Position numbers and translations under genes: made by a program. From Apostichopus japonicus (taxonomy: Eukaryota > Echinodermata > Holothuroidea > Aspidochirotida > Stichopodidae): DNA of 64,000 nucleotides. This document shows, piece by piece, positions 29,189 through 64,000 of the stretch. Every line of letters starts with the position of its first letter. The first letter of the stretch is position 1. The DNA lies in assembly GCF_037975245.1 (NCBI RefSeq), contig NC_092577.1:23090398-23154397 (forward strand). The letters run 5' to 3'. Under the pieces are notes generated by a model. That model was not told the DNA's origin. It was given only the letters and a program-made list of their open reading frames with translations, and did no database searches.

Positions 29189-32100
29189 TCACTGGTCTAA
29201 TGTATATACATAGGAGTCATTGTCTGCCTCACACGACGTCGGAATGTCATTTTGACTGAACGTTTCCCAAAATCTGTCAATCTTATTTTTGCTTCTCAAG
29301 GAATTGTAAACAATCTTGAGTTTCTGCTGCACTGAGTTGTGAAAGAATCTTTCCAAATCGACAGGACGCTCAAGATTTATGACACTCACTCTGCTATTCC
29401 AGACAATGTTTTTGTAGCAATTGAGGAGAAAATCAAACAAGAGGTTACTTTGTTTGTTCGCCGATTTGTTTGTTTCTGGTTCACAGTCTCCGAAGAGAGT
29501 GACCTTCCTCCATCGCTGGACGTCGTGTGAGGCGTTGACACGTGAAAGCTTATCTATAAGTCGTCTCCAAACAGGATAGGTTATATTACAATCTAGAAAG
29601 AGGTGGGAAGTGGTTTCTACCTCGGACTTACAAAATGTACAAAGAGGTGAATCAATCATTTTACACACATACATCTTATGATTCGTAAAAAGAACATTGT
29701 GTCTGATCTTAAAATCTATGTCGGCATCACTAAACAACTTAAAACCCGAGTACACACTCTTCCAAATTTTGTTAAAATCGAGCTCTGGGTAGATCTTTAA
29801 CCAGTATACTTCGCCATTGGGTTTGACGGTAGCGCGTTGGTGAAACAGTTGAATCGCGCTTTTTGTGTTAAGTGTGGTTGAACTAACCCAGTAATTTTCT
29901 CTCTCGCCTTGAAAATCCAACTGAAAGCTCTCCTCGTTGTCAATGGCAACAAGGGTGTCGCTTTCTAGAATTGTCGGGAGCCAGTGATCGGGGAGTGCTT
30001 TGCACAGTTTGTCGGTTAATTCTCTCACTTCGTCAATGGTCATCGAATTATCCGGATCACTTACCAAAATGAGCTCATGAATTGCCTCACTAGGCATTCT
30101 TCTCGGCAATATTTCGTACATAAGGTCCCTTACACAGAGAATTCCCCCCGAAATGAAAGACTTATCAAGAAACATTTTACCTTTCGAATCCCGCAGAAGG
30201 TGATTATGAAAGAGGGGTTGGGACAGAATTTCCTCCCTGTTGTCAGGTGGGCGGAGTCTGTCCTCGGTCAGCTTTCGCCAAGCAAGTAACAGTTCCCCGA
30301 CATAACCTGGTAATTTACGTAATGACTTAAAGTCCGGTAACATTTTCAAAACTTGCAGCCCCATGTTCATGTTTTCATACTGGTTAAAGTTATAAACAAG
30401 TAAAGCTTTCAACATTTCATTGATTTCGTTTCCTTGAATTTTGCCAATAATTTTTAATCTGAGTGCATCTCTTCTCTGTTTGAGGTCAAAAAGATTGAGT
30501 CCCCCTTTCTCAACGGGGAGCGTTAACACATCGTAACTAATGAGGTGTTTTCCATGACCCCAAAAAAAATCAATAACATTCTTACGATAATCAGTACAAA
30601 CCCAATCTGGTACACAGACAACGGTCGCCATATAAATAAAACGTGACGCCACCAGGACGTTTACAACAAGCGTTTTGCCTTTGAAGGACAATTTGCGCCC
30701 CTTCCAGCGCTTCAGAACCGTTCCGCGCTTAGCACTAAGTTCTTCCCAATTTTCTCTTTCGACAATGCGGTCGTCATTCCCTACCGCAACCCCAAGTACC
30801 GTTAGGTAATCATATCTCACGGGGAATGGATAAGTCATTTTGAGATTTTTGGATTTGCCAATTAGGAGCAACTCAGTTTTATCGTAATTACATTTAGATC
30901 CGGATGCTCTTTCATAATTTTTGATAGTTTGGAAGACGTGATCAATGCTTTCGGTATTGGCTAGCATAAAAGTAGTATCGTCAGCATGCTGAAACATGCG
31001 AGGCTCAAAATGGAGAAATTTGATACCCGAAATATGGTTGTTCTTATAAATTGCTTCGCGGAACGGTTCTGCACTAATTACATACAACAGTGCCGAAATA
31101 GGGCACCCTTGCCTCACACCTCTTTTGATTTCAAAAATATTAGACAAGTAACCGTTATGCTTAATATGACTGTTGATATCTGTGTACAAAATTGCAACCC
31201 AGTTACGAAAATACTGGCCGAAACCTACTTTCTTCAAGACATTAAACAAATACTGGTGATCAACCCTATCGAAGGCCTTTAATTGATCAATTTTAAGGAG
31301 TAAACCGTCACAATTTGTTTGATTTACGTAACGGATAATATTACGAATAACCATAATATTATCAGCAATGTCTCTTCCAGGAATGCAACAGGTCTGGTCA
31401 CTAGAAACAATTGAACTTATAACTTTTGAAATTCTGTTAGCTAAAGCTTTCGTAATGATTTTATAATCAATATTTAGGAGGCTAATTGGTCTCCAATTTG
31501 AAAGTTTCCTAAGGTCCCCTTTTTTGGGAATAAGAGAAATCATACCTGTTTTCATGGAATCGCACATCTCGTTCGATTCAAAAATAGCGCTACAAATACG
31601 AATAAGAATAGGTCCAAGCACATCCCAAAAATGTTTAAAAAATTCAACAGTCAGCCCATCAAGTCCAGGGCTTTTATTAGTTTTCATTGCAACGAGGGCA
31701 TTGGAAAGTTCCTCTAAGGTGATCTCTTCTTCACACAACTTGATTTCCTCTTCCGAAAGAGTTTTGTCCAAATGGTGCAAAAATTCACGCTGAATATTTT
31801 CCTGAGTGTGTTCGAGCGAATAAAGATTTTTATAAAATAAGGCCTGCTCACGAAGAATTAATTCTTCATCCGTGACGATTTCACCTCTGTCCGTAAGAAC
31901 CGATCTCATTACTTTCTTTTTTTGTCTCGAGGTCTCTAGGTTTAGAAAGAATTTCGTCGACTTCTCACCTTCCTCATACCACAGTACCTTGGAACGAATA
32001 GCTGCCCCGTTAATTTCGTGCCGCAGTAAAACATTAAGACGGCTACGCAGTTCGAGAAGCCTTGTGGTGTCGTAATCACCAAATTTGTGAGCTTTAATTT

Positions 32101-33070
32101 GTTCGTAATTTATCTTCTTCAGCAGCAGCTTTTTCTCTTTTTCACGCCTCGATTTTTGGCGTTTGCCGAATGTAGCACTCCTAATTCTAATCTCCTTTTT
32201 AAGGTTGTCATACCATAATTTAAGTGCTGTAGAGTCAGAATGCGACGTATTTAACCAACTGTCCAAAATAAATTGTCTGATTCCTTGGCAAAAAGTATCG
32301 TCTTCTAAAAAGGAATTGTTGAAAATCCATGTACCCGGACCTCTAGGAATTAGAGTAAGGTCAAGGTATAACTCCACAATATCGTGGTCTGACGCTGGGT
32401 AATGCGAAATTTCGCATTTAACTACGTGCGGTAAAAGTTCTTTACTAATTAAAAATCTGTCAATCCTGGATCCCGAAGACATGTTACTAGATGTACGCGT
32501 AAACTGAATTTTCGAGGGATGTTTATCCCTCCATACATCAATCAAATTAAATTTGTCCATGAGATCTTTAAGGACTTTTCTTGAAGAGTCCGGTCTAGGG
32601 CCGGGTGGAAACCTGTTTTGGTATGGGTTAATTACATTGTTAAAATCCCCGGTGAGCACAACAGGTCCGTGACAGGAGGTAATAATTCTGTCTAAATCCG
32701 AAAAGAAAGCTTTACGCTCCGCCGGCACATTGCACGGCGCATATATATTAATTACGCTAATTATCTTGCCATCAATATCTATCTCCAGAACTTGTGTCCT
32801 CCCTTTGTAAGGAGTTGTATGGGAAATAACATCGAAATCACTATTATGTCTAAATAAGGAGGCAGTGCCTCTTCTTCTTGCGTCAGGGAAATTAGAAAAC
32901 AAGATTTCCCCTTCCCAATCGAGATTTGCCGTTTTAGAAATATCGTCGTCCCAAAACGTTTCTTGAAGGAGCGTTAAATCATAATTGTTCTTTCTTAACA
33001 ATGCAAATAAATCTGTCCTTTTTTCTCTACCGACCAAGCCATTACAATTGAGTGTGGCGAGCTTGATCAT
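29189..33070 (-). CDS. LINE copy 3 ORF2, AP endonuclease-reverse transcriptase
   Basis: From the Met of MIKLATLNCNGL the product is 1293 aa. The frame is open further upstream to 33187, overlapping ORF1 by 88 bp, but conserved endonuclease sequence begins at MIKLA. AP endonuclease, residues about 2-235: NCNG at 8-11, QETFW around Glu37, TGDFNN with D142 and N144, and SDHD with D228/H229. Reverse transcriptase, about 460-760: KSPGLDGL, WRPISLLNIDYK, LKIDQLKAFDRV, RQGCPISA, and catalytic HADD (D697, D698). The C-terminal zinc finger is C1144/C1147/H1156/C1161 (CTFC...HLFLDC), as in Tx1/L1 proteins. The endonuclease presumably nicks the 5S gene after TATA, and the RT primes from that nick. All catalytic residues I can locate are present. 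Confidence 0.94.
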   Translation of the reverse strand: MIKLATLNCNGLVGREKRTDLFALLRKNNYDLTLLQETFWDDDISKTANLDWEGEILFSNFPDARRRGTASLFRHNSDFDVISHTTPYKGRTQVLEIDIDGKIISVINIYAPCNVPAERKAFFSDLDRIITSCHGPVVLTGDFNNVINPYQNRFPPGPRPDSSRKVLKDLMDKFNLIDVWRDKHPSKIQFTRTSSNMSSGSRIDRFLISKELLPHVVKCEISHYPASDHDIVELYLDLTLIPRGPGTWIFNNSFLEDDTFCQGIRQFILDSWLNTSHSDSTALKLWYDNLKKEIRIRSATFGKRQKSRREKEKKLLLKKINYEQIKAHKFGDYDTTRLLELRSRLNVLLRHEINGAAIRSKVLWYEEGEKSTKFFLNLETSRQKKKVMRSVLTDRGEIVTDEELILREQALFYKNLYSLEHTQENIQREFLHHLDKTLSEEEIKLCEEEITLEELSNALVAMKTNKSPGLDGLTVEFFKHFWDVLGPILIRICSAIFESNEMCDSMKTGMISLIPKKGDLRKLSNWRPISLLNIDYKIITKALANRISKVISSIVSSDQTCCIPGRDIADNIMVIRNIIRYVNQTNCDGLLLKIDQLKAFDRVDHQYLFNVLKKVGFGQYFRNWVAILYTDINSHIKHNGYLSNIFEIKRGVRQGCPISALLYVISAEPFREAIYKNNHISGIKFLHFEPRMFQHADDTTFMLANTESIDHVFQTIKNYERASGSKCNYDKTELLLIGKSKNLKMTYPFPVRYDYLTVLGVAVGNDDRIVERENWEELSAKRGTVLKRWKGRKLSFKGKTLVVNVLVASRFIYMATVVCVPDWVCTDYRKNVIDFFWGHGKHLISYDVLTLPVEKGGLNLFDLKQRRDALRLKIIGKIQGNEINEMLKALLVYNFNQYENMNMGLQVLKMLPDFKSLRKLPGYVGELLLAWRKLTEDRLRPPDNREEILSQPLFHNHLLRDSKGKMFLDKSFISGGILCVRDLMYEILPRRMPSEAIHELILVSDPDNSMTIDEVRELTDKLCKALPDHWLPTILESDTLVAIDNEESFQLDFQGERENYWVSSTTLNTKSAIQLFHQRATVKPNGEVYWLKIYPELDFNKIWKSVYSGFKLFSDADIDFKIRHNVLFTNHKMYVCKMIDSPLCTFCKSEVETTSHLFLDCNITYPVWRRLIDKLSRVNASHDVQRWRKVTLFGDCEPETNKSANKQSNLLFDFLLNCYKNIVWNSRVSVINLERPVDLERFFHNSVQQKLKIVYNSLRSKNKIDRFWETFSQNDIPTSCEADNDSYVYTLDQ

Positions 33071-33099
33071 AAGTATAAGTCCAATTAGACAGTAATACA

Positions 33100-34191
33100 T
33101 TATCGGTTCGCAGGTGTGAACAATCTTGCCGTACTTGTATTGGGCACAAACTTCTTTTTGTTTTGCTTCGTTCTGACCACCTGCCATGTGGTCTCATTCA
33201 CCGATAATTCTTCTCCACTCGACTCTCTCCCTCGTTTACCCGTCTCGCTTACTGTATCGACTTCTGCTGTGGTATTTATGGGGCTGCTCGTACTTGTTTC
33301 TTCTTTCTCTTCTGGTTGTGTAGGACTGCTTTTGCTTAACGTTTTTTCTGTATTTGTAGACTCCGGTTCTACAGATTCAGTAGGGTCAGTACAGGGCGGG
33401 GGGTCAGGAACGGCGTCGATAGTCTGAGGGTTCACAGAGTGATCGTTTTGCGACCCCTCCTCCATCTTTGTCGCATCGCTGTCTTTTGCTTCACAGTGAA
33501 AACTTTTATGTCCACGTCCTTGGCATTTGTAACATTTCACGTTGGGACACTTGTTTTCAGAGTGTCCTTGCTGGTTACACTCCTTGCAAACGTATTGTGC
33601 ACATTCTCTCATCAAATGGTTTTCCCCCAGACATAAATTACACACACGAGTTTGTCCGTTATGCTTTAATCTCAGGTGGCTGCCGGAAACCAAAATTGAG
33701 TACGGCAGACTCTTCTTGTTCGATGGGAGTTCAATACGGGCGTAGCGAATCCCATTTTCGACCGTAGGATGTTCCTCATAAGTTTTATGTGTCCATTCAC
33801 TTTTCATGGCGCAACCGTAAGCCACTAACTTTTCCGAGAGTTCCTCATCAGAAATGAAAGCAGGAACGCCAAATAAACTCACTGTAATCAAGCTCTTGGT
33901 GACTCCTCTAACATCACACGGTTTCCCAGCGATTACAAGACCCGTATTCTGCAGTAATTCTGCGTCACTCTTCGACTTAATGGTTAGCACCCACTCTCCT
34001 CCTACCTTAACACAACCAAGAATATTTTCTACTCCAATGTCCTCCACTGCGGCACCCAGCACGTCTAGTGCGCTAAACGTGTGGTCGACGATCTTCACAC
34101 TGTTCTCTCGTAACTCACTGTACACACTGGTACCATCGCTGCCCGCTCTCACACGTGAGGCGGGGTCAGCCATTGTTCCTACCGCTACCAA
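33100..34191 (-). CDS. LINE copy 3 ORF1, RNA-binding protein with three CCHC zinc knuckles
   Basis: The 363-codon protein has an RRM-like region at about residues 30-175 and zinc knuckles at C184/C187/H192/C197, C202/C205/H210/C215 and C220/C223/H228/C233. A Ser/Thr/Glu-rich linker follows, then a conserved tail containing TTWQVV and a basic NKKK cluster. Copies 1 and 2 carry the equivalent SSDDDW tail out of frame, so this copy shows the full-length form. Translation may start at the first Met or at Met7 (MADPAS). It ends 29 bp before the likely ORF2 start. Expected role: binds element RNA in the retrotransposition particle. Confidence 0.92.
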   Translation of the reverse strand: MVAVGTMADPASRVRAGSDGTSVYSELRENSVKIVDHTFSALDVLGAAVEDIGVENILGCVKVGGEWVLTIKSKSDAELLQNTGLVIAGKPCDVRGVTKSLITVSLFGVPAFISDEELSEKLVAYGCAMKSEWTHKTYEEHPTVENGIRYARIELPSNKKSLPYSILVSGSHLRLKHNGQTRVCNLCLGENHLMRECAQYVCKECNQQGHSENKCPNVKCYKCQGRGHKSFHCEAKDSDATKMEEGSQNDHSVNPQTIDAVPDPPPCTDPTESVEPESTNTEKTLSKSSPTQPEEKEETSTSSPINTTAEVDTVSETGKRGRESSGEELSVNETTWQVVRTKQNKKKFVPNTSTARLFTPANR

Positions 34192-43300: not shown

Positions 43301-43893
43301 GGTCACCCATCCAAGTACTGACTGCGCTCTACGTTGCTTGACTTACCTGATCGGACGAGAACCGGTATAGTCATCGTGATGTGGCCGTAGACATTCTAGG
43401 AGGTGAAATGTAGGCTACTTGTTTGGTAGGTTATGATGAGTGCACTTAATATATATATTATACATGAATGGATTTAATATATATTATGTTAATCTATATT
43501 TTACATATATATGTATAAAATGATCATATATAAAAACAATCGAGTTATTTACTAATATATTTGATTTTCAAATCGCTTTCCTTCTGTCAAGACACTTTCC
43601 TTGTGGCAAGACAATGTAGGCCATTTCAATTTCTCATCGTCGTGGCAACATAGTGTTATCAATTGTGAAAATAAAAGCCTACGGCACCCAGTATTCCCAG
43701 GCGGTCACCCATCCAAGTACTGACTGCGCTCTACGTTGCTTGACTTCGGTGATCGGACGAGAACCGGTATAGTCAACGTGATATGGCCGTAGACATAACA
43801 AGAGGTCAATGTAGGCCATTTCAATTTTTCATCGTCGTGGCAACATAGTGTTATCAATTAGGAAAATAAAAGCCTACGGCACCCAGTATTCCC
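34379..43893 (-). rRNA. 5S rRNA tandem array, minus-strand block 2 (39 genes)
   Basis: Minus-strand gene 5' ends: 34416 (split by LINE copy 3), 34611, 35013, 35208, 35403, 35598, 35793, 35988, 36183, 36378, 36573, 36956, 37151, 37346, 37748, 38149, 38344, 38539, 38941, 39136, 39331, 39526, 39721, 40104, 40299, 40864, 41059, 41254, 41637, 41832, 42027, 42222, 42417, 42612, 42807, 43002, 43197, 43392, 43794. The final 23 bp or so (about 43871-43893) are the 3' end of a gene cut by the DNA transposon; its 5' part resumes at 54802. Spacers are of the 195, 383 and 402 bp unit types, plus one 565-bp unit with the insert at 40428. Confidence 0.96.
40428..40596 (-). repeat. 170-bp insert in long 5S spacer, copy 5
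   Basis: Same insert as at 18564 with a shorter tetranucleotide tail (two ATTC units fewer). It has the same TGATCA flanks and the same spacer position. Confidence 0.72.
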
Positions 43894-43920
43894 AAGCAAA
43901 TACCCTTCCAAGTACTTATC
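43894..43920 (+). repeat. left terminal inverted repeat of the DNA transposon
   Basis: The end begins AAGCAAATACCC and contains CCAAGTACTTATC at positions 15-27. Compared with the right end in reverse complement, 16 of 27 bases match without gaps. Compared with the 5S sequence that would follow the target duplication, about 18 of the first 26 bases match in the same register, including CCAAGTACT. Confidence 0.72.
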
Positions 43921-43921
43921 T

Positions 43922-44057
43922 GGTGCTCAACAGACCAATGGTTGAGCGACGTTGAGCGCTGAACAGACCAATCACTGCTCAACTTTCTCGTTGACAGTGC
44001 TCAACAGACTAATGGTTGAGCGCCGTTGAGCGTTCAACAGACCAATGGTTGAGCACC
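43922..44057. repeat. subterminal palindromic repeat cluster of the DNA transposon
   Basis: A 136-bp segment begins GGTGCTCAAC and ends with its reverse complement GTTGAGCACC. Inside, GCTCAACAGACCAATGGTTG-type units recur several times, each itself partly palindromic (GCTCAAC...GTTGAGC), with spacers GACGTTGAGCG and GCCGTTGAGCG. Such clusters near one end of DNA transposons usually bind the transposase; here the two C2H2 fingers are candidates. No matching cluster is seen near the right end. Confidence 0.75.
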
Positions 44058-44172
44058 ATTTAAACTACGTAAATTACGTCATCTGCTGGTCTACTTAAAA
44101 CTTTTTTGCGAACGACCAACCCACTGCGTGCAAGTCACATATAAAGCACAATTTTATCATAAAGCAAGAAAT

Positions 44173-45185
44173 AGACACCTGTCGCAGATTTTATCGTTGA
44201 ATCGAACCTCGCCAAAGCTGAAAGTTAATCAGAAATCCATGTAACATAAATCGTAAGTATTCTTATCGCGCGTTTAGACCTAACTTAGCTTCATTCTAGC
44301 CGACAAGTCTTAGGCCTTAACTATAGGCATAAGTACCAGTTACGCGAAGAACCATCGAACGACTCCGCTTTTTTGCCTAAAATTTCGCCTTGCGCAGGTA
44401 AAATTGCAAATCGGTTCTTGCAATTCTAATTCAAATGTTCTTATGTTTGAATTTATTGACCTAAATTACTGAAAATTCATGCATTAAATGTTTTTAAATT
44501 AGCTTTTTGCCAATCTAGCCCCCTAGCCTAAGGAACACACTTCTGACTGAGTAGGCTAGTGACAACAGTACGGTTAGGTCTATCTAAGTCTGTAAAAGAT
44601 TTAAATGTGTTTAAAATCAAGGTAAGGGTTCAGAAAACAGGTTAGGGGTACCTCTCCCAGGAGGGATTGGATGCCGTTGATCATATGGTGATGAAAACTT
44701 AGAGGAAAATTCCATGGAATGTTTTCTTCAAAATTGTTACATGACCCAAAATATCAATGGCAGCATTTATTATCACAAGAGTAGCAGCTTACAATGCGGC
44801 AGACAGAGCGTCACTCTCAAGCTGCGTAAAAAGTACAGTATTGTAGTAACAATTAAAAGCGACAGTCAAGACACTTGTTGCAGTTTCTGCCATTGAATTG
44901 AACCTCCAGTCGCCATAACTGAAACAGAATTCCATGTAACATAAATCATATGTATATTTTTCGCATCTATTTACATAGCCTCAGACTACTACAAGTTTTA
45001 GGCCGGCTATTCCATAAGTACCGGTTATGCAAAAACCCTCACTCGGCAACGTTCCTGATTTGGCACTCTGCATTTTTTGCATCATATTTTGCCTTGTGCA
45101 TGAATATGTGCAAAATTGCAAATCAAGTACATGTCATGAATTCTAGTTTAAATGTTCTCATCTTTAATATTAACCTAAATTCATA
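44173..45185 (+). repeat. diverged internal duplication of the transposon 5' region; first-exon candidate
   Basis: Sequence at about 44173-44471 recurs in diverged form at about 44869-45185, an offset of about 696-714 bp. Shared landmarks in order are AGACAC, CCATGTAACATAAATC, a pyrimidine-rich stretch with GTCTTAGGCC or GTTTTAGGCC, AAAATTGCAAATC, and ACCTAAATT. The first copy has ATCGTAAGTATT (near 44249), a good 5' splice site that could end a non-coding first exon and join the acceptor at 45785. The second copy reads ATCATATGTATA there, so the donor is lost. Short open frames here show no recognisable protein and are not called as genes. Confidence 0.6.
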
Positions 45186-45791
45186 ATCAATTATGTTCAA
45201 ATATATAACCTTTTTATTTTACCACAACTTCCCCATGCCGGTGAAAAATAACTGACAATAAGTGACAATTACATCCATGTGGAAGTACTGACAGTGCTAC
45301 AGCCTACATGACAGGGAATTTTGTCACAATATTAATGAAAGTCATATAAGCAACAATTTTGAGGGTCATACTGTATATCCCCATCTAGGCTTTAAGGCCA
45401 GCCTTGGTTGTTGTCAGACACAGCCTAGCCTCCATAGTTATTTTTTGAAAATGCAAGAGTGGCTACATGCTAGAACAAAGAAGGCTAAGTAGGTTTCAAG
45501 TTTAAACCAAAACCATTACATTAACACTGACTCAGTTATTCAGATACTGTACAAAGGCAGGGCGCTATACTTGTACCATTGACTTTAGTCCTAGGGGTCA
45601 AATTATTGCCAAAAAATGGAAGTTTGCATAGGTATCACTCATTTGTATTTGTTTTAAAAGGTGAACATTAACTCAACTTTCCACTTAGTTTCCAGACCTG
45701 TGTAGATTACCCATTATTGAAAACCAATACCCACTACTGCAGCTAATTGCTTTAATAGAGTGTTTTAATTGTGTGTTTTTTTCAGGTGAAC

Positions 45792-47096
45792 ATGGAGCTG
45801 GGTCACAGATGCCAGGTGTGCCGTCAGACATTCAACGTGAAATCCAATTTGACACGGCATATGAAGAGTCACCAAACACACAGTTTTGAATGCCAAGTCT
45901 GTAACAAAACATTTGCATTGAAACAGTCACTAACAAAACATAAGCAACAGCACCAGTATCCTGTGATTCGCTTGTTCTCACGCGGTGAAGCAAAACTCAA
46001 GTGCACTGAACACGCTTCTCAGGTAGCAAAGCGCCAAAGTGAACCAGTTGATGATGTCTGGCTGAATCCAGGCACTGCTGAGGCTGCAGCCAAAAAAACA
46101 GGAGGGACTCTATGGACATGTAACATTGTCATCAACTTTGGAAAGTATGCCGGCCAAACCTTCAAATGGCTTCTGGAAAATGACGTTGGATGGGTTGTGT
46201 TCATTCTGTCAGAATTCAAGCGAACTGGGGAAACCATCCCATTGCTCAAGTGGCAGAAAGAAAGACTATGGGACCTGGCTGAACAGTTTCCGGAGGTTAT
46301 GGTGCTGATTGACAGACGCTTGAAGGTAAAGGAATAAGGAGTAAACAAAATATTGTGTACAATGTATGATGTTCAAGTTCTTATATTTGACTGCTAGCAC
46401 TACACAAAAAATGTAGCAGTCTAAGCAATGTAGCAAATTTAAGTAGCATTTTGCAATGTCATGTGATGAAATTTATTCTCTGGTAACCTGTTATTATCAT
46501 TTTGCTCTCTTCTTTTCCTTTCATGACAGTTGATTTCATTTTCTGTGTAGTTTAGAGATAACTTAAACTGTTGATACCATTGTTGACAGAAAATCAATTG
46601 CCCCTTAAGTTTCCCTTGAGGATATTTCCTAGGAATCATCGCAGGTGGCATTGTCCGAGTGCCCCCAGACATACCTGCGAACCACCCCTCCAGAATAAAA
46701 TACTCCCAACGGTCCAACCCCCAACAGACTCGCCTGCCTTACACTAATATGCACAAATAAATTGGTAGTGGCTGCACTGGAAGTAAGTACCGTGTAGAAT
46801 GTAGACCTGTTTAACGACACATCAGCATGTGTGTTATAAATTGTCGTTCAAATTGTCTTTCTAATATTGTTCAAGTACCCCCATTAGTTGCCTCCTACCA
46901 CAGGCAGGGTATATTCTGGGCATATTCTGATAAGCCAATCAGATCTAATGGCCTATGCCTCTTTCATTCTTTGATTGCAGAAGCAGGAAAGAGAGAAGGC
47001 TCAGGCCAGTGCAGAATCTGATCCGTTTGCACAAGACTATCTGGAAGATGCTGATCTGCTGGCTGCTGCAGGTATGATAATTTTATTTTGTTTATT

Positions 47097-47155
<59 letters not shown>

Positions 47156-50100
47156 TGTATTTATTTATTATTTTTTTATTTTATTTTATTTTTTATTTTA
47201 TTTTATATTTTATTTATTATTTATTTATTTATTTATCATAATTTTTATATATTTTTATTTATTATTTTTTATTTATTTATACAACTCTTAAATTATCACT
47301 CCTGTTAGGACATTAGGTTTAATTAGTCAGAGGCCTGACTTGATTTGCCATTGACCAGGTGTAACTTGAGAGGACACAGCCTTTTTTCCTGGAACGCTAG
47401 CTCAAATGTGGATAAATTTACCAATCAGAAGCTGATAATGCCTTACACTCCACCTCTATCCCACACAATGTTACACAATTGTCTGTCGGGGAGGTAATAT
47501 GTGTAACCTACTGAACACAGAGTCCGCTATTAATTACACACATTTCATTCAAATACATAAAACACTTGTCTTATTATTGTCTTTTCAGAGAATGTTCTCC
47601 AACAGTCAGAGGTTGCTGTATCAACAGAGATAACCACAGTTGGGAAACTTGTTACACCATCAGCTGCGGCCACAAGGAGCTCAGACGACTCTGCATCTTC
47701 ATCCGCTGCTCAAACATCTTCCTCGCCAGGAGAAGCTATTCTTCTGGAGGGCTGGCAGACGTTCTGGGATGATCCCCCCCAACATGTGCAGGGCATCTGC
47801 GCTCCAAACATCAAATGGATCAAAGGTGATGATCAGTTTGGAATTTTTCAGCCCGCAAAGCCATATCAGAATGCCAAGGGTGTGTTGGTGCAGCGCAAGG
47901 TGTTCAAGGACAAAATACAGTTCAACCCCCCGCCTGTCCCTACATCAATCAAGGGATTACTACCAAACATGCTGTCCTTCTTCACAACACCTGTTATCTT
48001 CTGGAGGCCTGTTGGTGTCTTGGAAGTGAAAATAAGGTGTCCAAACCCCAACTGCCCTGCTCCACCTGGTAGCTACTTGGCAAAAAGCGGTTTTGGTAAC
48101 TACGCCAGGCAAGTATGTGGCCTCAGTTACCATTACACTTTGCTGACAGAGCGATTGCAGTGTATCCATTGCATGAAGCAGCGTAAGGCAATTGGAGAGA
48201 ATGTGGACCCTGACACTGATGAAGAGGAGACAACACAACAGCAGCAGTACAGGTGGCATGCATACAGTCCACATATCTTACTGTCCCTTGCACCGGCTGT
48301 TCGAAGCATGTTCCCTGCAGTTATTTGTGGAAAGAGGGCAATTGATAAGAGTGTAGTTACCCTTCTCAGTGACAGACTCAATGCTGTGTCCATGGCCAAG
48401 GTCCACAGGCTGATACAACAGGGCCATGATGAGTGGTATGCTGGAAGGAGGGACCTGTACCAGACTCTCTTGTACCAGGCTCATACAGCCAGCACTGCCT
48501 CTCAGCAAGGGATCTTGTCCTATTTGAAACCTCCAGGCAGCTACACTCCACCACTCCCTCAGACTCCCGTACCCTCTCCCAGAGTGCTGCGCCGGGCCCA
48601 TTTGGTCATGGAGATGGAGAGGATGCCGGACTACAGAGCCTCCATTCTCAGTGTCACTGGAGAAATCCTGTGCATTGATGGGACTAAACAGGTAACTTCT
48701 TTTTAAAGTATGTGCTTAACGGTTTGTCAACAAAAAATTCCATTATGGTAGTGTGTTGGTTCCAGCTATGCTTATCTTCTTTTGTGGACAAGGTAAACGG
48801 TTCATACCGATGGAGTATAATGATCACATATATGCATAAGCTGCTAAGCCACAAAACTCCATTCAGTGTTTATATGCTTAAATGTAGCTATTCCTTAGTC
48901 CCATCCATGTGTGCTGCACAAGTGCTTTCTGTGATGTCTGACCATATAACTGAATTTGTGCTAATTTGCAATGGTGACACCAATCCGGCACTGGTACAGA
49001 TAAAGAAAGCAACAGTTTTATGTAAGAATTGCATTAAAAGGCCATGCTGGACTGAAACTCGCCTGCAAGGAGTTATATATTTATATAGTTATATAGTGAC
49101 TCGTCTGCTAACTCATTGTTTCCTCACACAGCATGAATCTGGAACAAACAGGCCTTCTTCAACTGTCCTTGCCTCCCCTTTAAACGATCTTCAGAAATTA
49201 CATATCATCAAACTGGATTTAATTCTCTTATCTCTCTTCCTTTAGCTTTTAATTTTTCTCTTCTCTCCTTCATGTCAGGAGGATATTGATGGTTCATTTC
49301 CAATAGCAGTTGGGGGGGGGGGTCTCACCCTTCCCCATTCAACATCTCCCACATTGCTTGAAATATTAACTCTGTTAATGTTATTTTTTACAGATCCTAA
49401 AGAAAATACACGGTGATGGCCAGGGTACCATGCAGTATGTGACAAGCGTTCTGAATGAGTGGGGTCAGTTCTTGACGACGGTAGTGGTTGCATCTGAATC
49501 AGAAGGAAGCTACGAAAGAATGGCAAGTGGACTGGTGGCACGTTTCAAGCGGGCTAATGCTCCTGCCCCGAAGATTCTTTACGCAGACAACAACTGCTGT
49601 AGGTGGGTAAAATGCCTTCGTGGAATGAAACTCCTGACTGTGATGCACCCATTCACACATACTGTGTCATTAGGCATGTTTGGCTACTGCCATACCAGCT
49701 GTTGCATTGGATGTCACACTGGGTGCTATATGGGGTTGTCGTAAGTGGTGACTAAAGGGGAGAGATGTTCCCGTCTTGACATGTGCCGTACAACATGCCT
49801 GGTCATCGTATCTCAAATAGGTGCTCTGTAACATTGGTGTGTGGTGATGGGTCATCTGCTGCTATATCAGCTGTTGCATTTGGGTATGTTTCACCAGGAG
49901 CTATTTTGGGTTGTCATTAGAGGTGACAAATTACATCTTGTCGGCATGTGCTTTGTCAATAAACAAACATGGGTATCGTATCTCAAGTACATGCATTGCA
50001 GAGTAGTGTCGCTGATGAACACATCTGTGATCACGATAAGTTCACAATATTGACCGACAGAAATCGCTAAATTTCTTGATAATGCAGGCAGATGTTAATG

Positions 50101-53100
50101 ATTCATAATTTCTGTAATTTAAGCTGTCATTTCGAAATTTTATTACAACTCAAACCACCCTAAAAGCTAATGCAACCCAGTCTACAGTGTCCCCGCAGAC
50201 TGGAAATTCAGTTATTACACTCATGGCATTCTACATCGTCCTGATATATTTTATTCAGGTTGTATGTCAGTCCACAAAGACATTTTAGAATAAGATAAAA
50301 TGTTGGTTAATTAAATTAAAGAATTAATATATGTACAGAAATGAAATTGCCCTGGATAAAGAAATGTTCTGAATGATCTGTAATTTTTTTTTCTGTTCTA
50401 GAGATGGTGGGACTTCGTGGCTGGAATCCTTATTTCAAGACTGGACAGACGAGGGAATGGTGGTGCGCCTAGATATCAGACACTGGCTCCATCGATGGGA
50501 CACAGTAGTGATTAAACAAACACACTCCAAGTATGGTATGTTTATGTCTGCACTCGCCGGGGCCATCCTAGCCTACAATAAAGAGGACATGCTGCTGCTG
50601 GTCCGAGCAATTCGTAATGGCAATGAGATTTATTCCCAGTACTCAGATGAACAGATGCTGCCTTTTGTGAAGCCACACCAGCTGAAGTCGTATGTTCGAC
50701 GCATAACCCGAGGGGTAGAGGTAAGCTGCTTTTATTGTGCATGGATAAACAGTGTCCATAACAAAGCTGAAGGAGGGCAGTGTCACCTGATATGCAATTG
50801 ATACTGACATCGTAAATGACATCATAAATCTAAAGTGGCAATCGTTTCTTTTGTTTACATTGTCATTAGAATTAGACCAGTGAGTCTTGATCTGAATTAT
50901 CTTTAAGGCTCTTTTTTTTAATTTGAACATTTATTATTTTGCAGGAGAGTGCGTGTGCCATAGAGGCCATTTTGCAGGAGTTCAAGGGACCAGCTGGCCT
51001 GGATATTGATGGCATACCTCTGTTCAAGTCCACAGAAGCAGTTGATGCTCAATGGGCGACGGCCAGTAAACATCTTAGTTGTATGCAGGTGAGCTCATTG
51101 TTTATAGGTACAAAACAGTCATCAGTTGTTGGTGATGCAAGAAAGTTGCACCAAAAGGAGAGACCAAAGGTTGCCAGAGATCAATCTGTTATGATTGATC
51201 AACATGCCCCTCCCTCGTGAAGGAGGGGAGGGGAATTCTACTGACTGAGCTAATCTGATCAAAAATATTTAAATATCACAAATAATAAGAAATCATTTAT
51301 TAGTGAATTCATTCATTCTTTTTATTTTCAGGACCCACCTAACATTTCACTCTACGTCACTACTAGAGAGGTGACTCTAAATGGCATCCAGTTGAACAAG
51401 TACAGGTGTCGGAGAGGAAGCAACTCGTTGGAGGGCCTACATGCTCACATGGTGAATGCAGTCCCATCACAGAGGTGTGGCATTATGCCTTTCCAGGTAA
51501 GAAAAAACCTTGTAGCATTCTAGATTACTGTCAGTCAATGCCAGTCATGTGAATCTAGCTTTTGTTAGATTAAGCTATTTATGCAGCAGCAGTGCTAAAA
51601 TTATGTGTGACATACTTGACAATTTGTTTCCCAAATCACATAAAGTTCTGGAACACTTGTTGTGACATAACTTGACAAACCTTTAGCGAACCTCCATCAC
51701 ATCAACTAGTCCCATACTGTGTGGTAAGTTTAAAAATGAAATTAATGCCCATGTCATTCTAGTGACATGGCTTTCATTCACCCAAGCCGAAAAGGTGTGA
51801 GCTTATATTTGTTATTTATTTTTTTATATAATATAAAATATTTTTATATTTTTTTAACACAGGCCGCAATAAAATGTGCCTCTAGCATAACACGTGTTAT
51901 CATGTTATAACACATATGCATATAAGTGCGCAATATATTCAAGTCGAAAACGCTATTATAAGCAACTGTACAATTCGGTTCAGGTGTTTCATTACACCTA
52001 CTTTTTTATTTGAAATTCAGCATCATGTTCAAAGTCAGTCAAAGCACCTATTTGTACCCAACTTCTTTGAATGACCCAATACACTCATTTATTCATTTGA
52101 TTCATTGGTAGTTTTTTTTTTTTATTTGCAGGTGTACCTAATCACCTTTGCAGTTCAATGGAATACAAGAATGGAGACACTGAAGGTAGCTGGTGGCCAA
52201 GGACGTAAGACAACATGTCTGGACCCCCGCCAAATCCAGCGCTTAAACCAGCAGTCGGAATTCCTATTCGGGAAGGAGCACCTCTTTGAACCAAACTTCG
52301 CTGCACCCATGCCCAATCCTGGGAGGCATGATGAAGGCCCTGAAGAGCTGCTGGGGGTGGAGTATGCCTACTACCAGTCAACAGATTTCAGATCCAGAGA
52401 CTACTACATTCAGAAAGGTACAGTAAATTCAATATATCATGAGGATGTGGCAAACTAGTTGGTGACCGTATAAAATCATGTAAACGTTAAGGGCAGCAGG
52501 TAAGGTTAGAAGTGGGAGAATAAGCATTTCTCTCATTGCAGAGGGACTGTCATGGGGATTGGCAGCTCAGTAGGACAATTGATAGTAACAGGCGTTGTTG
52601 AGATGTGTGCTAAAGCTTAGTAGGATTAGTGCTTGCATATAAAAAGATGATATATATATATTTTTTTATTCCAGTTGATGAAGAAGCGTCTCAGGAGCTT
52701 GATGAGCCTCATCAGGACCAGCAGAGTGACTCAGAAGAGTGTGAAGATGAAGGGGTTGGAGACCTGGCCTCTGAGGAAGACCATGGGGATCCTATTGATT
52801 CATTGAGTATAGAGCATTCTGTGCTGAGTGCATCAAGGCAAGTCGAAGAGGAAGAGAGTCCTGCTTTACAGGATGTGCTCATGTCTCCCCGCCATCTTCA
52901 TCTCCCCGGGTTTGAGGAAGTCGAGCGACTGGCCCTGCTGCTACTGCAACTTGCTGATGACAGTAACAGACACATTGTGCCTCCTTCTCTGAGACGGGAG
53001 ATTGCAACAGCTGCTAGTTTGCTCCACGAACATGACAAATCGGCTCGAAAGTTTGTGAAAAGGTACCAGTCTAAATGGGGGTACACCTTGTTTGGGAGAT

Positions 53101-54077
53101 GTCTAGGTCCAGAAAACCCACAGAGCAGTGCTGCTCAGAAAACAAAATTTGCGCAGATGAGGTACGCACAGGCGTCTCAAATAACAGAAGAGTCCCGTCT
53201 CCTGTACATATTAATCAAAATGTTAAAGAACAGACCTTCTGTCAGTCACTACTCCTCACCCACGAAGACGGCTAGCATGGTGTTAGGCCATTACAAAAGA
53301 ATTGTGGATAGGCTAAGGGATGATCCACTTTTGTCAAATGTAGAGATACCTCTGCCCAACATCAATGCCAAGTCTGTCACAAACATGCTTTCAAAGGAAG
53401 CTAAGAGTGCAAACTTGAGGGCCACTTGCCAGCCAAAAGTCAAACCACACAAACGGGTCTTCTCAGACGAAACTATGCCTGATGCCCCCTCCCTCCCTTC
53501 ATCACTTCCACCTCTAGACAGACCTCAAGTTCAGTACCCGTCGGTTGACCTCATTACTGGAAAGAGGCGACATGAAAAAAGGAGATTGGATTTTGATGTT
53601 GAGGAAACCGAACATGTTGCTTCATCATCCACTGGTGCAATCGCGTCACCTTCAACTTTGCGACAACTGCAACCTCGACCAACCTCTGCACAGGTTATGC
53701 CATCAGGTTCATCCAATGCACCTATACTATTGGTTGTACCTTCACAGCCCCAGGCACCATCTGTGCTGCTACAACCTTCAACCAGCCAAGTAGCATTTAC
53801 ATATAAATCGAAACCATCACAATCCCATACTCCAAAACCAGTGATGCCAAACAAATCAAGAAAGCCATGTTCTGCGTGTAAGATAGCACAGTGTGGTGGG
53901 CTAAAAAAGCGCTACACACCTTCAAAAGAAAAATGTGCTGCCAGCAACCAAAAAATGTTCACATTTTGCCCAAGAACTAGAAAGTCCACAACCCCGGGAT
54001 TTGGAGGCGTATTCAATGACTTTGAACATTTTAAAAGAGTCGTAGACGAAGAACTGCAGAGGAGAAAAGGCAAATAA
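45792..54077 (+). CDS. DDE transposase of the 5S-targeted DNA transposon, nine coding exons
   Basis: Proposed exons: 45792-46325, 46981-47071, 47589-48691, 49394-49602, 50402-50720, 50945-51088, 51332-51496, 52132-52417, 52675-54077. All introns are GT-AG, phases agree, and the total is 1417 codons plus stop. The ATG has a good context (AACATGG). Residues 7-54 are two C2H2 fingers (C7/C10/H23/H27, C34/C37/H50/H54). About 107-143 holds INFGKYAGQTFKWLL, like the GKY fold seen in ExoX-type C-termini. About 264-405 is a W-rich, cysteine-containing region (C359, C364, C385, C400, C403) resembling DUF6729 proteins. The candidate DDE triad is D572 (ILCIDGT), D641 (ILYADNN) and E834 (RGSNSLEGLH), with a long insert between the second Asp and the Glu as in hAT/MuDR/P-like enzymes. 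An acidic linker follows 951, and a terminal Cys cluster (C1349, C1352, C1357, C1371, C1382). Likely role: binds the element ends and 5S genes and moves the element. A domesticated host gene is less likely, given the TSD and ends. Confidence 0.82.
47083..47285. repeat. (ATTT)n microsatellite in transposase intron
   Basis: About 200 bp of TTTA/ATTT tetranucleotide repeats degrade into T- and AT-rich sequence, inside the intron between 47071 and 47589. Frames open through it are low-complexity artefacts. Confidence 0.9.
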
Positions 54078-54232
54078 AATGGGCTCTTCCTCATGTGCTT
54101 GCCATAGTTGCATACCAGACAACATACATGTAACCATTTATGGTTCCTGGGCTGCAGTGAAAAACACTTGCCCATTGTCACAGTATAAAAAATTGTAAAT
54201 GTAGTACATACTATGAGCTAGCCAAGAGGTAC

Positions 54233-54238
54233 AATAAA
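54233..54238 (+). terminator. polyadenylation signal of the transposase gene
   Basis: AATAAA lies 156 bp after the stop codon in GGTACAATAAATGCC. It fits the 3' end of the spliced transposase mRNA. Between here and the right inverted repeat (54239-54774) I see only anonymous AT-rich sequence. Confidence 0.6.
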
Positions 54239-54774
54239 TGCCACTTTGAACAGTCAGCAACATGTTCTTGAGTCGTTTTTAGCGCTATTGGCTACTATAA
54301 TACTATACCTAAGCATATCATTCTCTCTGTCCCTCAATCTGTCTGTCTTGTCTGCTAATTACTTAAATACTAATCCCTTAAAGACCCTCTTTTTAAAGTT
54401 GGTCTGATTTTGTTTATATTTCATAAATGTGGTCAAATCCTCACATGAATGTTATTCAAATTTCATAAATGCTGGCTACATCAACAAAGGAGGCAGCGAG
54501 CACCTATGTGTGCAAAGCTAAAGGATTGAAGGTTACTTTATAACCTCCAGGATTTAATATAATTGTCTACCAGCTGAAGTTGAATCTTGGAAATGCAACT
54601 TTCTTGAAACATTTTTAAGCAAGTTTTAGAGAGAAGAATAATCTCATGATTATAATTAAACTGCAGAAATACAGAGAATGGGGCTCTATTTTATCGCCGC
54701 TCCGATTGATGGCGCTATTGCGAATCTAATTTTTTTGCAAATTCGCACATTCCTGCGCTGTGATCGGTAAAGGG

Positions 54775-54801
54775 GATTAGTACTTGCGGGGGTCGTGAGC
54801 C
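54775..54801 (-). repeat. right terminal inverted repeat of the DNA transposon
   Basis: Read inwards on the minus strand it begins GGCTCACGACCCCC and contains GCAAGTACTAATC at positions 15-27, the same spacing as in the left end. On the plus strand TTAGTACTTGCGGGGGTC resembles the box C region of 5S genes, facing away from the neighbouring array. Confidence 0.7.
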
Positions 54802-56270
54802 AATCCCAGGCGGTCACCCATCCAAGTACTGACTGCGCTCTACCTTGCTTGACTTCGGTGATCGGACGAGAACCGGTATAGTCAACGTGATATGGCCGTA
54901 GACATAACAACAGGTCAATGGAGGCCATTTGAATTTCTCATCGTCGTGGCAACATAGTGTTATCAATTGTGAAAATAAAAGCCTACGGCACCCAGTATTC
55001 CCAGGCGGTCATCCATCCAAGTACTGACTGCGCTCTACGTTGCTTGACTTCGGTGATCGGACGAGAACCGGTATAGTCAACGTGATGTGGCCGTAGACAT
55101 TACAAGAGGTGAAATGCAGGCTACTTGTGTGGTAGGTTATGATGAGTGGATTTAATATATATATTATACATGAATGGATTTAATATATATTATGTTAATC
55201 TATATTTTACATATATATGTAGAAAATTCTAATACATAAAAACAAAGTAGTTATTTATTAATATATTCGATTTTCAAATCGCTTTCCTTGTGGCAAGTCA
55301 ATGTAGGCCATTTCAATTTCTCATCGTCGTGGCAACATAGTGTTATCAATTAGGAAAATAAAAGCCTACGGCACCCAGTATTCCCAGGCGGTCACCCATC
55401 CAAGTATTGACTGCGCTCTACGTTGCTTGACTTCGGTGATCGGACGAGAACCGGTATAGTCAACGTGATATGGCCGTAGACATAACAATAGGTCAATGTA
55501 GGCCATTTCACTTTCTCATCGTCGTGGCAACATAGTGTTATCAATTAGGAAAATAAAAGCATACGACACCCAGTATTCCCAGGCGGTCACCCATCCAAGT
55601 ACTGACTGCGCTCTACCTTGCTTGACTTCGGTGATCGGACGAGAACCGGTATAGTCAACGTGATATGGCCGTAGACATAACAACAGGTCAATGTAGGCCA
55701 TTTCAATTTCTCATCGTCGTGGCAACATAGTGTTATCAATTGTGAAAATAAAAGCCTACGGCACCCAGTATTCCCAGGCGGTCACCCATCCAAGTACTGA
55801 CTGCGCTCTACGTTGCTTGACTTCGGTGATCGGACGAGAACCGGTATAGTCAACGTGATATGGCCGTAGACATAACAAGAGGTCAATGTAGGCCATTTCA
55901 ATTTTTCATCGTCGTGGCAACATAGTGTTATCAATTGTGAAAATAAAAGCCTACGGCACCCAGTATTCGCAGGCGGTCATCCATCCAAGTACTGACTGCG
56001 CTCTACGTTGCTTGACTTCGGTGATCGGACGAGAACCGGTATAGTCAACGTGATATGGCCGTAGACATAACAAGAGGTCAATGAAGGCCATTTCAATTTT
56101 TCATCGTCGTGGCAACATAGTGTTATCAATTAGGAAAATAAAAGCCTACGGCACCCAGTATTCCCAGGCGGTCACCCATCCAAGTACTGACTGCGCTCTA
56201 CGTTGCTTGACTTACCTGATCGGACGAGAACCGGTTTTTTTTTTTTTTTTTTTCTCTTTTATTGGGAGAT

Positions 56271-61585: not shown

Positions 61586-64000
61586 AAGCAAATACCCTTC
61601 CAAGTACTTATCTGGTGCTCAACAGACCAATGGTTGAGCGACGTTGAGCGCTGAACAGACCAATCACTGCTCAACTTTCTCGTTGACAGTGCTCAACAGA
61701 CTAATGGTTGAGCGCCGTTGAGCGTTCAACAGACCAATGGTTGAGCACCATTTAAACTACGTAAATTACGTCATCTGCTGGTCTACTTAAAACTTTTTTG
61801 CGAACGACCAACCCACTGCGTGCAAGTCACATATAAAGCACAATTTTATCATAAAGCAAGAAATAGACACCTGTCGCAGATTTTATCGTTGAATCGAACC
61901 TCGCCAAAGCTGAAAGTTAATCAGAAATCCATGTAACATAAATCGTAAGTATTCTTATCGCGCGTTTAGACCTAACTTAGCTTCATTCTAGCCGACAAGT
62001 CTTAGGCCTTAACTATAGGCATAAGTACCAGTTACGCGAAGAACCATCGAACGACTCCGCTTTTTTGCCTAAAATTTCGCCTTGCGCAGGTAAAATTGCA
62101 AATCGGTTCTTGGAATTCTAATTCAAATGTTCTTATGTTTGAATTTATTGACCTAAATTACTGAAAATTCATGCATTAAATGTTTTTAAATTAGCTTTTT
62201 GCCAATCTAGCCCCCTAGCCTAAGGAACACACTTCTGACTGAGTAGGCTAGTGACAACAGTACGGTTAGGTCTATCTAAGTCTGTAAAAGATTTAAATGT
62301 GTTTAAAATCAAGGTAAGGGTTCAGAAAACAGGTTAGGGGTACCTCTCCCAGGAGGGATTGGATGCCGTTGATCATATGGTGATGAAAACTTAGAGGAAA
62401 ATTCCATGGAATGTTTTCTTCAAAATTGTTACATGACCCAAAATATCAATGGCAGCATTTATTATCACAAGAGTAGCAGCTTACAATGCGGCAGACAGAG
62501 CGTCACTCTCAAGCTGCGTAAAAAGTACAGTATTGTAGTAACAATTAAAAGCGACAGTCAAGACACTTGTTGCAGTTTCTGCCATTGAATTGAACCTCCA
62601 GTCGCCATAACTGAAACAGAATTCCATGTAACATAAATCATATGTATATTTTTCGCATCTATTTACATAGCCTCAGACTACTACAAGTTTTAGGCCGGCT
62701 ATTCCATAAGTACCGGTTATGCAAAAACCCTCACTCGGCAACGTTCCTGATTTGGCACTCTGCATTTTTTGCATCATATTTTGCCTTGTGCATGAATATG
62801 TGCAAAATTGCAAATCAAGTACATGTCATGAATTCTAGTTTAAATGTTCTCATCTTTAATATTAACCTAAATTCATAATCAATTATGTTCAAATATATAA
62901 CCTTTTTATTTTACCACAACTTCCCCATGCCGGTGAAAAATAACTGACAATAAGTGACAATTACATCCATGTGGAAGTACTGACAGTGCTACAGCCTACA
63001 TGACAGGGAATTTTGTCACAATATTAATGAAAGTCATATAAGCAACAATTTTGAGGGTCATACTGTATATCCCCATCTAGGCTTTAAGGCCAGCCTTGGT
63101 TGTTGTCAGACACAGCCTAGCCTCCATAGTTATTTTTTGAAAATGCAAGAGTGGCTACATGCTAGAACAAAGAAGGCTAAGTAGGTTTCAAGTTTAAACC
63201 AAAACCATTACATTAACACTGACTCAGTTATTCAGATACTGTACAAAGGCAGGGCGCTATACTTGTACCATTGACTTTAGTCCTAGGGGTCAAATTATTG
63301 CCAAAAAATGGAAGTTTGCATAGGTATCACTCATTTGTATTTGTTTTAAAAGGTGAACATTAACTCAACTTTCCACTTAGTTTCCAGACCTGTGTAGATT
63401 ACCCATTATTGAAAACCAATACCCACTACTGCAGCTAATTGCTTTAATAGAGTGTTTTAATTGTGTGTTTTTTTCAGGTGAACATGGAGCTGGGTCACAG
63501 ATGCCAGGTGTGCCGTCAGACATTCAACGTGAAATCCAATTTGACACGGCATATGAAGAGTCACCAAACACACAGTTTTGAATGCCAAGTCTGTAACAAA
63601 ACATTTGCATTGAAACAGTCACTAACAAAACATAAGCAACAGCACCAGTATCCTGTGATTCGCTTGTTCTCACGCGGTGAAGCAAAACTCAAGTGCACTG
63701 AACACGCTTCTCAGGTAGCAAAGCGCCAAAGTGAACCAGTTGATGATGTCTGGCTGAATCCAGGCACTGCTGAGGCTGCAGCCAAAAAAACAGGAGGGAC
63801 TCTATGGACATGTAACATTGTCATCAACTTTGGAAAGTATGCCGGCCAAACCTTCAAATGGCTTCTGGAAAATGACGTTGGATGGGTTGTGTTCATTCTG
63901 TCAGAATTCAAGCGAACTGGGGAAACCATCCCATTGCTCAAGTGGCAGAAAGAAAGACTATGGGACCTGGCTGAACAGTTTCCGGAGGTTATGGTGCTGA
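61586..64000 (+). mobile_element. second copy of the 5S-targeted DNA transposon, partial
   Basis: Begins at the same base of the 5S gene (ATTCCC then AAGCAAATACCC) and continues to the window end, with the subterminal repeats at 61614-61749. The 5S flank on its left is the same as that of the first copy, including private variants. It therefore arose by duplication of the region and not by an independent insertion. Confidence 0.9.
63484..64000 (+). CDS. transposase first coding exon, second copy (partial)
   Basis: Equivalent to 45792-46308: ATG, two C2H2 zinc fingers, then the GKYAGQTFKWLL region. The window ends 17 bp before the expected exon end. No difference from the first copy was noticed in this exon. 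The acceptor TTTTTTCAG precedes it, as in the first copy. Confidence 0.88.
   Translation, partial: MELGHRCQVCRQTFNVKSNLTRHMKSHQTHSFECQVCNKTFALKQSLTKHKQQHQYPVIRLFSRGEAKLKCTEHASQVAKRQSEPVDDVWLNPGTAEAAAKKTGGTLWTCNIVINFGKYAGQTFKWLLENDVGWVVFILSEFKRTGETIPLLKWQKERLWDLAEQFPEVMVL

Follow-up and report, generated by a model that had tools for sequence, protein, structure and literature searches.

In ray-finned fish, Dada-5S transposons are known with the target ATTCCCAGGCGGTC and form one branch with Dada-U1, and a Dada element has been domesticated as dDada in carps and minnows (Kojima 2022, PMC8869645, available text). Dada-U1 is directed to U1 genes, and Dada-U6, of fish, Daphnia, oyster and Capitella, to U6 genes. 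In both, subterminal inverted repeats recur in the target at the same distance, and a role in target recognition has been suggested (Kojima and Jurka 2013, PMC3706591, available text). Published Dada elements are 4666-10979 bp long, and all except those of Perkinsus contain introns. Here, we analyzed 64,000 bp of the echinoderm Apostichopus japonicus, C17:23090398-23154397 (NC_092577.1; hereafter the window), and searched the genome to which it belongs (671.6 Mb, 35 contigs). A block of 10,908 bp in the window is almost certainly an autonomous, 5S-directed DNA transposon belonging to the Dada superfamily. Judged by its sequence, it is a member of the Dada-5S kind already described in fish, a likeness that rests on the common superfamily and the same 14-nt target; the hosts differ, being ray-finned fish in one case and an echinoderm in the other.

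The window is a 5S ribosomal RNA (rRNA) array with 131 Rfam 5S matches, including the larger part of the gene that the element splits. The 5S genes lie mostly on the minus strand, often at a spacing of 195 bp, and mobile elements interrupt the array. The insertion comprises the following features, in window coordinates:

43894..54801, plus strand: Dada-5S element of 10,908 bp, with the transposase encoded on the strand opposite the 5S gene
43871..43893, minus strand: 3' remnant of the split 5S rRNA gene, nt 97-119, with the left target duplication at its end (from sequence; joined gene 118/119)
43888..43893, no strand: left target-site duplication ATTCCC (from sequence)
43909..43916, plus strand: left subterminal motif CAAGTACT, positions 16-23 from the junction, the same distance as in the 5S target
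54779..54786, minus strand: right subterminal motif CAAGTACT, same distance from the junction
54802..54807, no strand: right target-site duplication AATCCC (from sequence)
54802..54903, minus strand: 5' part of the split 5S rRNA gene, nt 1-102 (Rfam match 54781-54903, 67.2 bits)

The left junction reads ...CCCAGTATTCCC/AAGCAAATACCC at 43893/43894, with a left flank of ...CACCCAGTATTCCC, and the right junction ...GTCGTGAGCC/AATCCCAGGCGGTC at 54801/54802, where the right flank starts with AATCCCAGGCGGTC. Joining the flanks minus one hexamer yields the neighbouring 5S gene at 118/119 nt, and the same value was obtained for the flanks of a third copy at C17:17.53 Mb (copy 3). The first-pass annotation had placed a 10.9-kb element within a 5S gene at exactly these coordinates. 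The split gene scores 67.2 bits in Rfam, compared with about 80-107 bits for most other 5S genes of the window. On the gene strand, the insertion lies at 5S nt 97-102, presumably just past the internal promoter box C. The 14 nt of ATTCCCAGGCGGTC recur without change in intact 5S genes next to the element and, in copy 3, at the right junction. The 6-bp duplication recognized in the first pass is ATTCCC/AATCCC in the window copy and its duplicate (5/6 identical) and perfect, ATTCCC/ATTCCC, in copy 3 (6/6); its length fits the 6-7 bp typical of Dada.

The motif CAAGTACT occupies positions 16-23 from the junction in the left end, in the right end (as reverse complement) and in the 5S target, and ACCC at positions 9-12 is also common to all three. 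Over 30 positions, the left and right ends are identical at 16, the left end and the 5S target at 19, and the right end and the target at 15. As a control, 21,356 interior windows of the element were taken from both strands. The left end exceeded every one of them in its likeness to the target; 38 reached at least 15/30, and 16/30 was reached by 8 and exceeded by none. Imperfect inverted ends in register had been reported in the first pass. The register stands, with 16/30 shared positions and CAAGTACT at 16-23, and the repeats are subterminal and resemble the target; they do not qualify as true terminal inverted repeats. The architecture published for Dada-U6 and Dada-U1, a subterminal repeat that equals a target motif at a fixed distance, is thus also seen here. 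At two loci on C13 (4.32 Mb, L013; 6.48 Mb, L014), Dada left-end fragments are fused to 5S-like 3' sequence, away from C17. These fusions pass through the shared CAAGTACT and could show how the element end became target-like.

The spliced DDE transposase gene has nine coding exons, as predicted in the first pass. All introns are GT-AG, and the frame encodes 1417 aa up to a terminal stop:

45792..46325, plus strand: exon 1, two C2H2 zinc fingers and a GKYAGQTFKWLLENDVGW motif
46981..47071, plus strand: exon 2
47589..48691, plus strand: exon 3, DUF6729, CCCC zinc motif (C359, C364, C400, C403) and first catalytic D572
49394..49602, plus strand: exon 4, second catalytic D641
50402..50720, plus strand: exon 5, DxxH motif D670-H673
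50945..51088, plus strand: exon 6
51332..51496, plus strand: exon 7, catalytic E834
52132..52417, plus strand: exon 8
52675..54077, plus strand: exon 9, ending with the stop at 54077, with the C-terminal cysteine motif starting at C1349

Exon 3 matches DUF6729 (PF20499) in Pfam with E = 2.3e-23. The predicted catalytic set (D572, D641, D670xxH673 and E834) is complete, consisting of a DDE triad with DxxH after the second D, and lies close to D567, D635 and E811 of Dada-U6_DR (PMC3706591, available text). The same residues occur in relatives on C12, C20 and C5 over the part covered, which for C5 excludes the first D. The N-terminal CCCC zinc motif is present as C359-x4-C364 and C400-x2-C403; the published Dada motif comprises C389, C394, C429 and C432, and a CCHC motif is named as well (PMC3706591, in the same text). 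At the C-terminus, C1349, C1352 and C1371 keep the published CCHC spacing (0, 3, 22) with K1362 at the H position, and C1357 could serve; the C12 and C20 relatives keep a C-terminal CxxC-H-C motif. With nine exons and 10,908 bp, the element fits the intron trait and the length range of published Dada.

The C2H2 finger pair of exon 1 matches PF00096 with 38.2 bits. No C2H2 finger is mentioned in the available Dada text of PMC3706591, which names CCCC and CCHC motifs, and the terms 'zinc finger' and 'C2H2' are absent from the main text of Kojima 2022 (PMC8869645), so far as that text is available. Scanning the window element for the C2H2 pattern recovered both fingers, plus a single additional match in a non-coding frame. 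Across eight loci of the C12, C20, C10, C5 and C1 relatives, the scan gave no coding-strand finger and three opposite-strand matches. Since the C20 scan alone spans the region from target junction to GKY exon, the absence of fingers is established for C20 and not for the other relatives.

Copies were sought in the genome with a left-end query of 807 bp and a right-end query of 722 bp, and the resulting counts of element-end copies are lower bounds. The left-end search gave 10 matches, of which three were full ends at 5S, three were fragments on C13, three were repeats within the element and one was a 45-bp piece on C7. Of the six right-end matches, five were full ends, all at one and the same 5S nucleotide, and the sixth was an internal piece of 70 bp on C8. 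All full right ends (5/5) and full left ends (3/3) lie at 5S nt 97-102, and the genome search found no full-ended copy at an unrelated site. This outcome favours the first-pass annotation, and its reading of the block as a spliced, 5S-directed DDE transposon of Dada is supported. One further copy begins within the window:

61586..64000, plus strand: left 2.4 kb of another copy (99.96% identity), which continues past the window end; segmental duplicate, offset about 17.7 kb

The flanks of this second copy are 98.0% and 99.5% identical to those of the first and colinear with them, so it represents a segmental duplicate and no separate insertion. Copy 3 lies 5.6 Mb from the window copy and is 99.3-99.6% identical to it within the element, whereas the flanks are only 90-93% identical; it therefore did not arise by duplication of the window copy together with its surroundings. 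The two differ by about 0.3 kb in length, in the intron after exon 4. Copies 2 and 3 retain the full 1417-aa frame. Two older copies, at C17:22.65 and 23.41 Mb, are without a left end and still have their right end at the 5S site.

Differences between the window copy and copy 3 number 5/4254 in exons and 35/6344 elsewhere; four are synonymous and one is non-synonymous, with a ratio of non-synonymous to synonymous change (pN/pS) of 0.07. The corresponding values are 50/3890 and 153/4206 with pN/pS 0.20 for the copy at C17:22.65 Mb, and 75/2668 and 129/3279 with pN/pS 0.46 for the decayed copy at C17:23.41 Mb (all pN/pS figures come from raw counts). These comparisons show purifying selection on the coding exons and support the exon model and recent function.

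Could a single old insertion have multiplied only as part of the 5S array, through unequal exchange and gene conversion, with no recent transposition? The two window copies are indeed segmental duplicates, and all full-ended copies found are on C17; array duplication and conversion therefore contribute to the copy count. However, copy 3 joins a nearly identical element to diverged flanks, with a perfect duplication and an intact frame, and a conversion tract stopping exactly at both element ends is unlikely. Along with the purifying selection on exons, this leaves the single-insertion account improbable. Several points weigh against a recently mobile Dada-5S element as such. Copies are few, with the full-ended ones confined to one contig; the target duplication of the window copy matches at 5/6 only; the right hexamers of the two older copies differ (TTTCCC at C17:22.65 Mb and TTCCCC at 23.41 Mb) and their left ends are missing; and the C-terminal CCHC motif has K1362 in place of a histidine at the published spacing. 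We regard the Dada-5S of the window as a real, intact and apparently recently mobile cut-and-paste transposon.

A Dada-derived host gene, domesticated like dDada and lying in the array by chance, would also explain a long conserved frame under purifying selection, and the available text of PMC8869645 offers a precedent within Dada. This explanation was rejected as very unlikely, because the catalytic residues and DxxH are intact, both ends and the target duplications are retained, several copies exist, and copy 3 is evidence of an independently inserted intact copy. The zf-BED domain is often seen in hAT, and a zf-BED match does cover the C2H2 fingers at chance level (E 0.98), but membership of hAT, MuDR, Kolobok, P or KDZ with a chance landing in a 5S gene is scarcely credible and was dismissed on the DUF6729 match, the homology to the Dada-U1 copy of this genome, the recurrent insertion at one 5S site, and the profile check proposed in the first pass, in which no hAT, MULE, Kolobok or KDZ Pfam family matched at E up to 1 (8 open reading frames, exons 1 and 3-9, exon 2 not included).

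PF20499 has 27 matches in the genome, on C1, C5, C10, C12, C16, C17 and C20. The window protein shares 40-44% identity over aligned columns with the Dada copy at C20:29.03-29.04 Mb. Within the catalytic core, its identity is 43.7% to C20, 45.0% to C12 and 34-40% to the C1/C5 rows, and the C12 and C20 proteins are 70-76% alike. The C20 copy lies inside a U1 array. Of 8935 first-look candidates for U1 genes, 42 matches were scored, and all 42 are on C20. Directly next to the copy is a U1 remnant whose first nucleotide is nt 90; its opening sequence, CTGCGATT, corresponds to the Dada-U1 site published for zebrafish, CTGCGAAT or CTGCGAAC (PMC3706591, available text). The published Dada-U1 motif GTGCAAT begins 20 nt inside the C20 element; judged by eye, this distance differs by one base from that in the U1 gene. 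A 15-mer search in four C20 loci did not find the U1 5' half, so a single junction of the C20 element is demonstrated. Like the Dada-U1 of fish (PMC3706591, available text), the C20 copy resembles the window element in its DUF6729-DDE protein and in having, near the insertion, a subterminal motif that also occurs in the target; unlike the window element, it targets the U1 gene and has no C2H2 finger between the U1 junction and the GKY exon. The U1 small nuclear RNA array with its Dada-U1 element spans C20:29.019-29.087 Mb, and the protein part has two in-frame stops. Positions 9.37 and 9.39 Mb of C10 hold copies related to this element, in opposite orientation.

C1 carries a DUF6729 match in a copy that looks truncated, and adjacent to it is a remnant of a U6 gene, nt 1-67, with its break close to the published site (GCGCA). 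This remnant was the one gene found when 13 of the 27 DUF6729 loci were scanned with Rfam and for tRNA genes; scans of two further flanks, both of the C12 relative, yielded none. Dada-U6 belongs to the same superfamily as the window element, but its target is U6. In an unrooted in-genome tree of the 5S protein, the U1-side proteins and the C1/C5 rows, the 5S protein stands alone between two groups. Target segments of 5S and U1 (about 40 nt each, picked around the insertion sites) align with a score of 11, which was reached by 0/2000 shuffles of one of them. The higher U1-side identity and the 5S/U1 target likeness agree with the Dada-5S/Dada-U1 branch of fish and do not prove it. A scan of viral contigs with 329 aa of the DUF6729 exon matched four stretches, none confirmed as a relative.

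Given the demonstrated anatomy, single target site, duplication, motif shared at fixed distance, differently flanked copies and exon selection, a transposition cycle can be proposed. The transposase would bind a motif around CAAGTACT, common to both ends and the 5S target and 16-23 bp inside each end, and would then excise the element. Joining would occur across a 6-bp stagger at 5S nt 97-102, with ATTCCC on the coding strand of the element. The element may be active at present, and residence in a multicopy array may limit harm to the host. More tentatively, and on balance doubtfully, the 5S lineage could be an ancient one that inserts at identical 5S nucleotides in echinoderms and in ray-finned fish; the gained C2H2 pair would read CAAGTACT, and the ends would have been shaped into target copies, allowing one reader for both steps.

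The array of the window also holds non-long terminal repeat (non-LTR) retrotransposons or pieces at about 2.4-7.7, 9.6-15.25, 29.04-34.38 and 56.24-56.66 kb. Their ORF1 contains CCHC knuckles (by eye), and ORF2 contains endonuclease and reverse transcriptase in both of those tested by Pfam; one long frame of 1334 aa lies at 29189-33193 on the minus strand. Five non-LTR junctions fall at or within a few bases of CCGGTTCTC/GAGAACCGG, a fixed site of the 5S gene distinct from that of Dada. The available text of PMC3706591 names the zebrafish element Mutsu for 5S genes. Near 17 kb of the window, between 16908 and 17135, the 5S genes change strand tail-to-tail, from plus before to minus after. Elsewhere in the genome, five COX1-like matches at C29:14745-31219, besides the mitochondrial COX1 gene on C35, are perhaps a nuclear copy or an assembly remnant. 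The C35 gene aligns gap-free with solved cytochrome oxidase subunit 1 across 447 residues and scores higher when translated with the echinoderm/flatworm mitochondrial code (table 9, 835.5 bits) than with the invertebrate code (table 5, 795.9 bits, same chain); flatworm COX1 is more divergent, and the gene was read as that of an echinoderm.

The novelty seen in the first pass, a Dada element directed to 5S genes, does not hold in that form, Dada-5S elements being already described in ray-finned fish (PMC8869645, available text), while the echinoderm host and the extra C2H2 fingers do extend the picture. No Dada-5S outside fish was found in the open-licence PubMed Central literature, a search that did not cover Repbase. 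As far as these searches show, the novelty lies in the occurrence of Dada-5S beyond fish and in a pair of N-terminal C2H2 fingers that was not found in the C20 Dada-U1 copy. The range of Dada-5S would extend from ray-finned fish to another deuterostome phylum. An apparently intact and recently mobile single-site family, a Dada-U1 copy and Dada-U6-like remains in the same genome would allow target specificity to be compared within one species, and so offer a way to find the part of the protein that sets the target.
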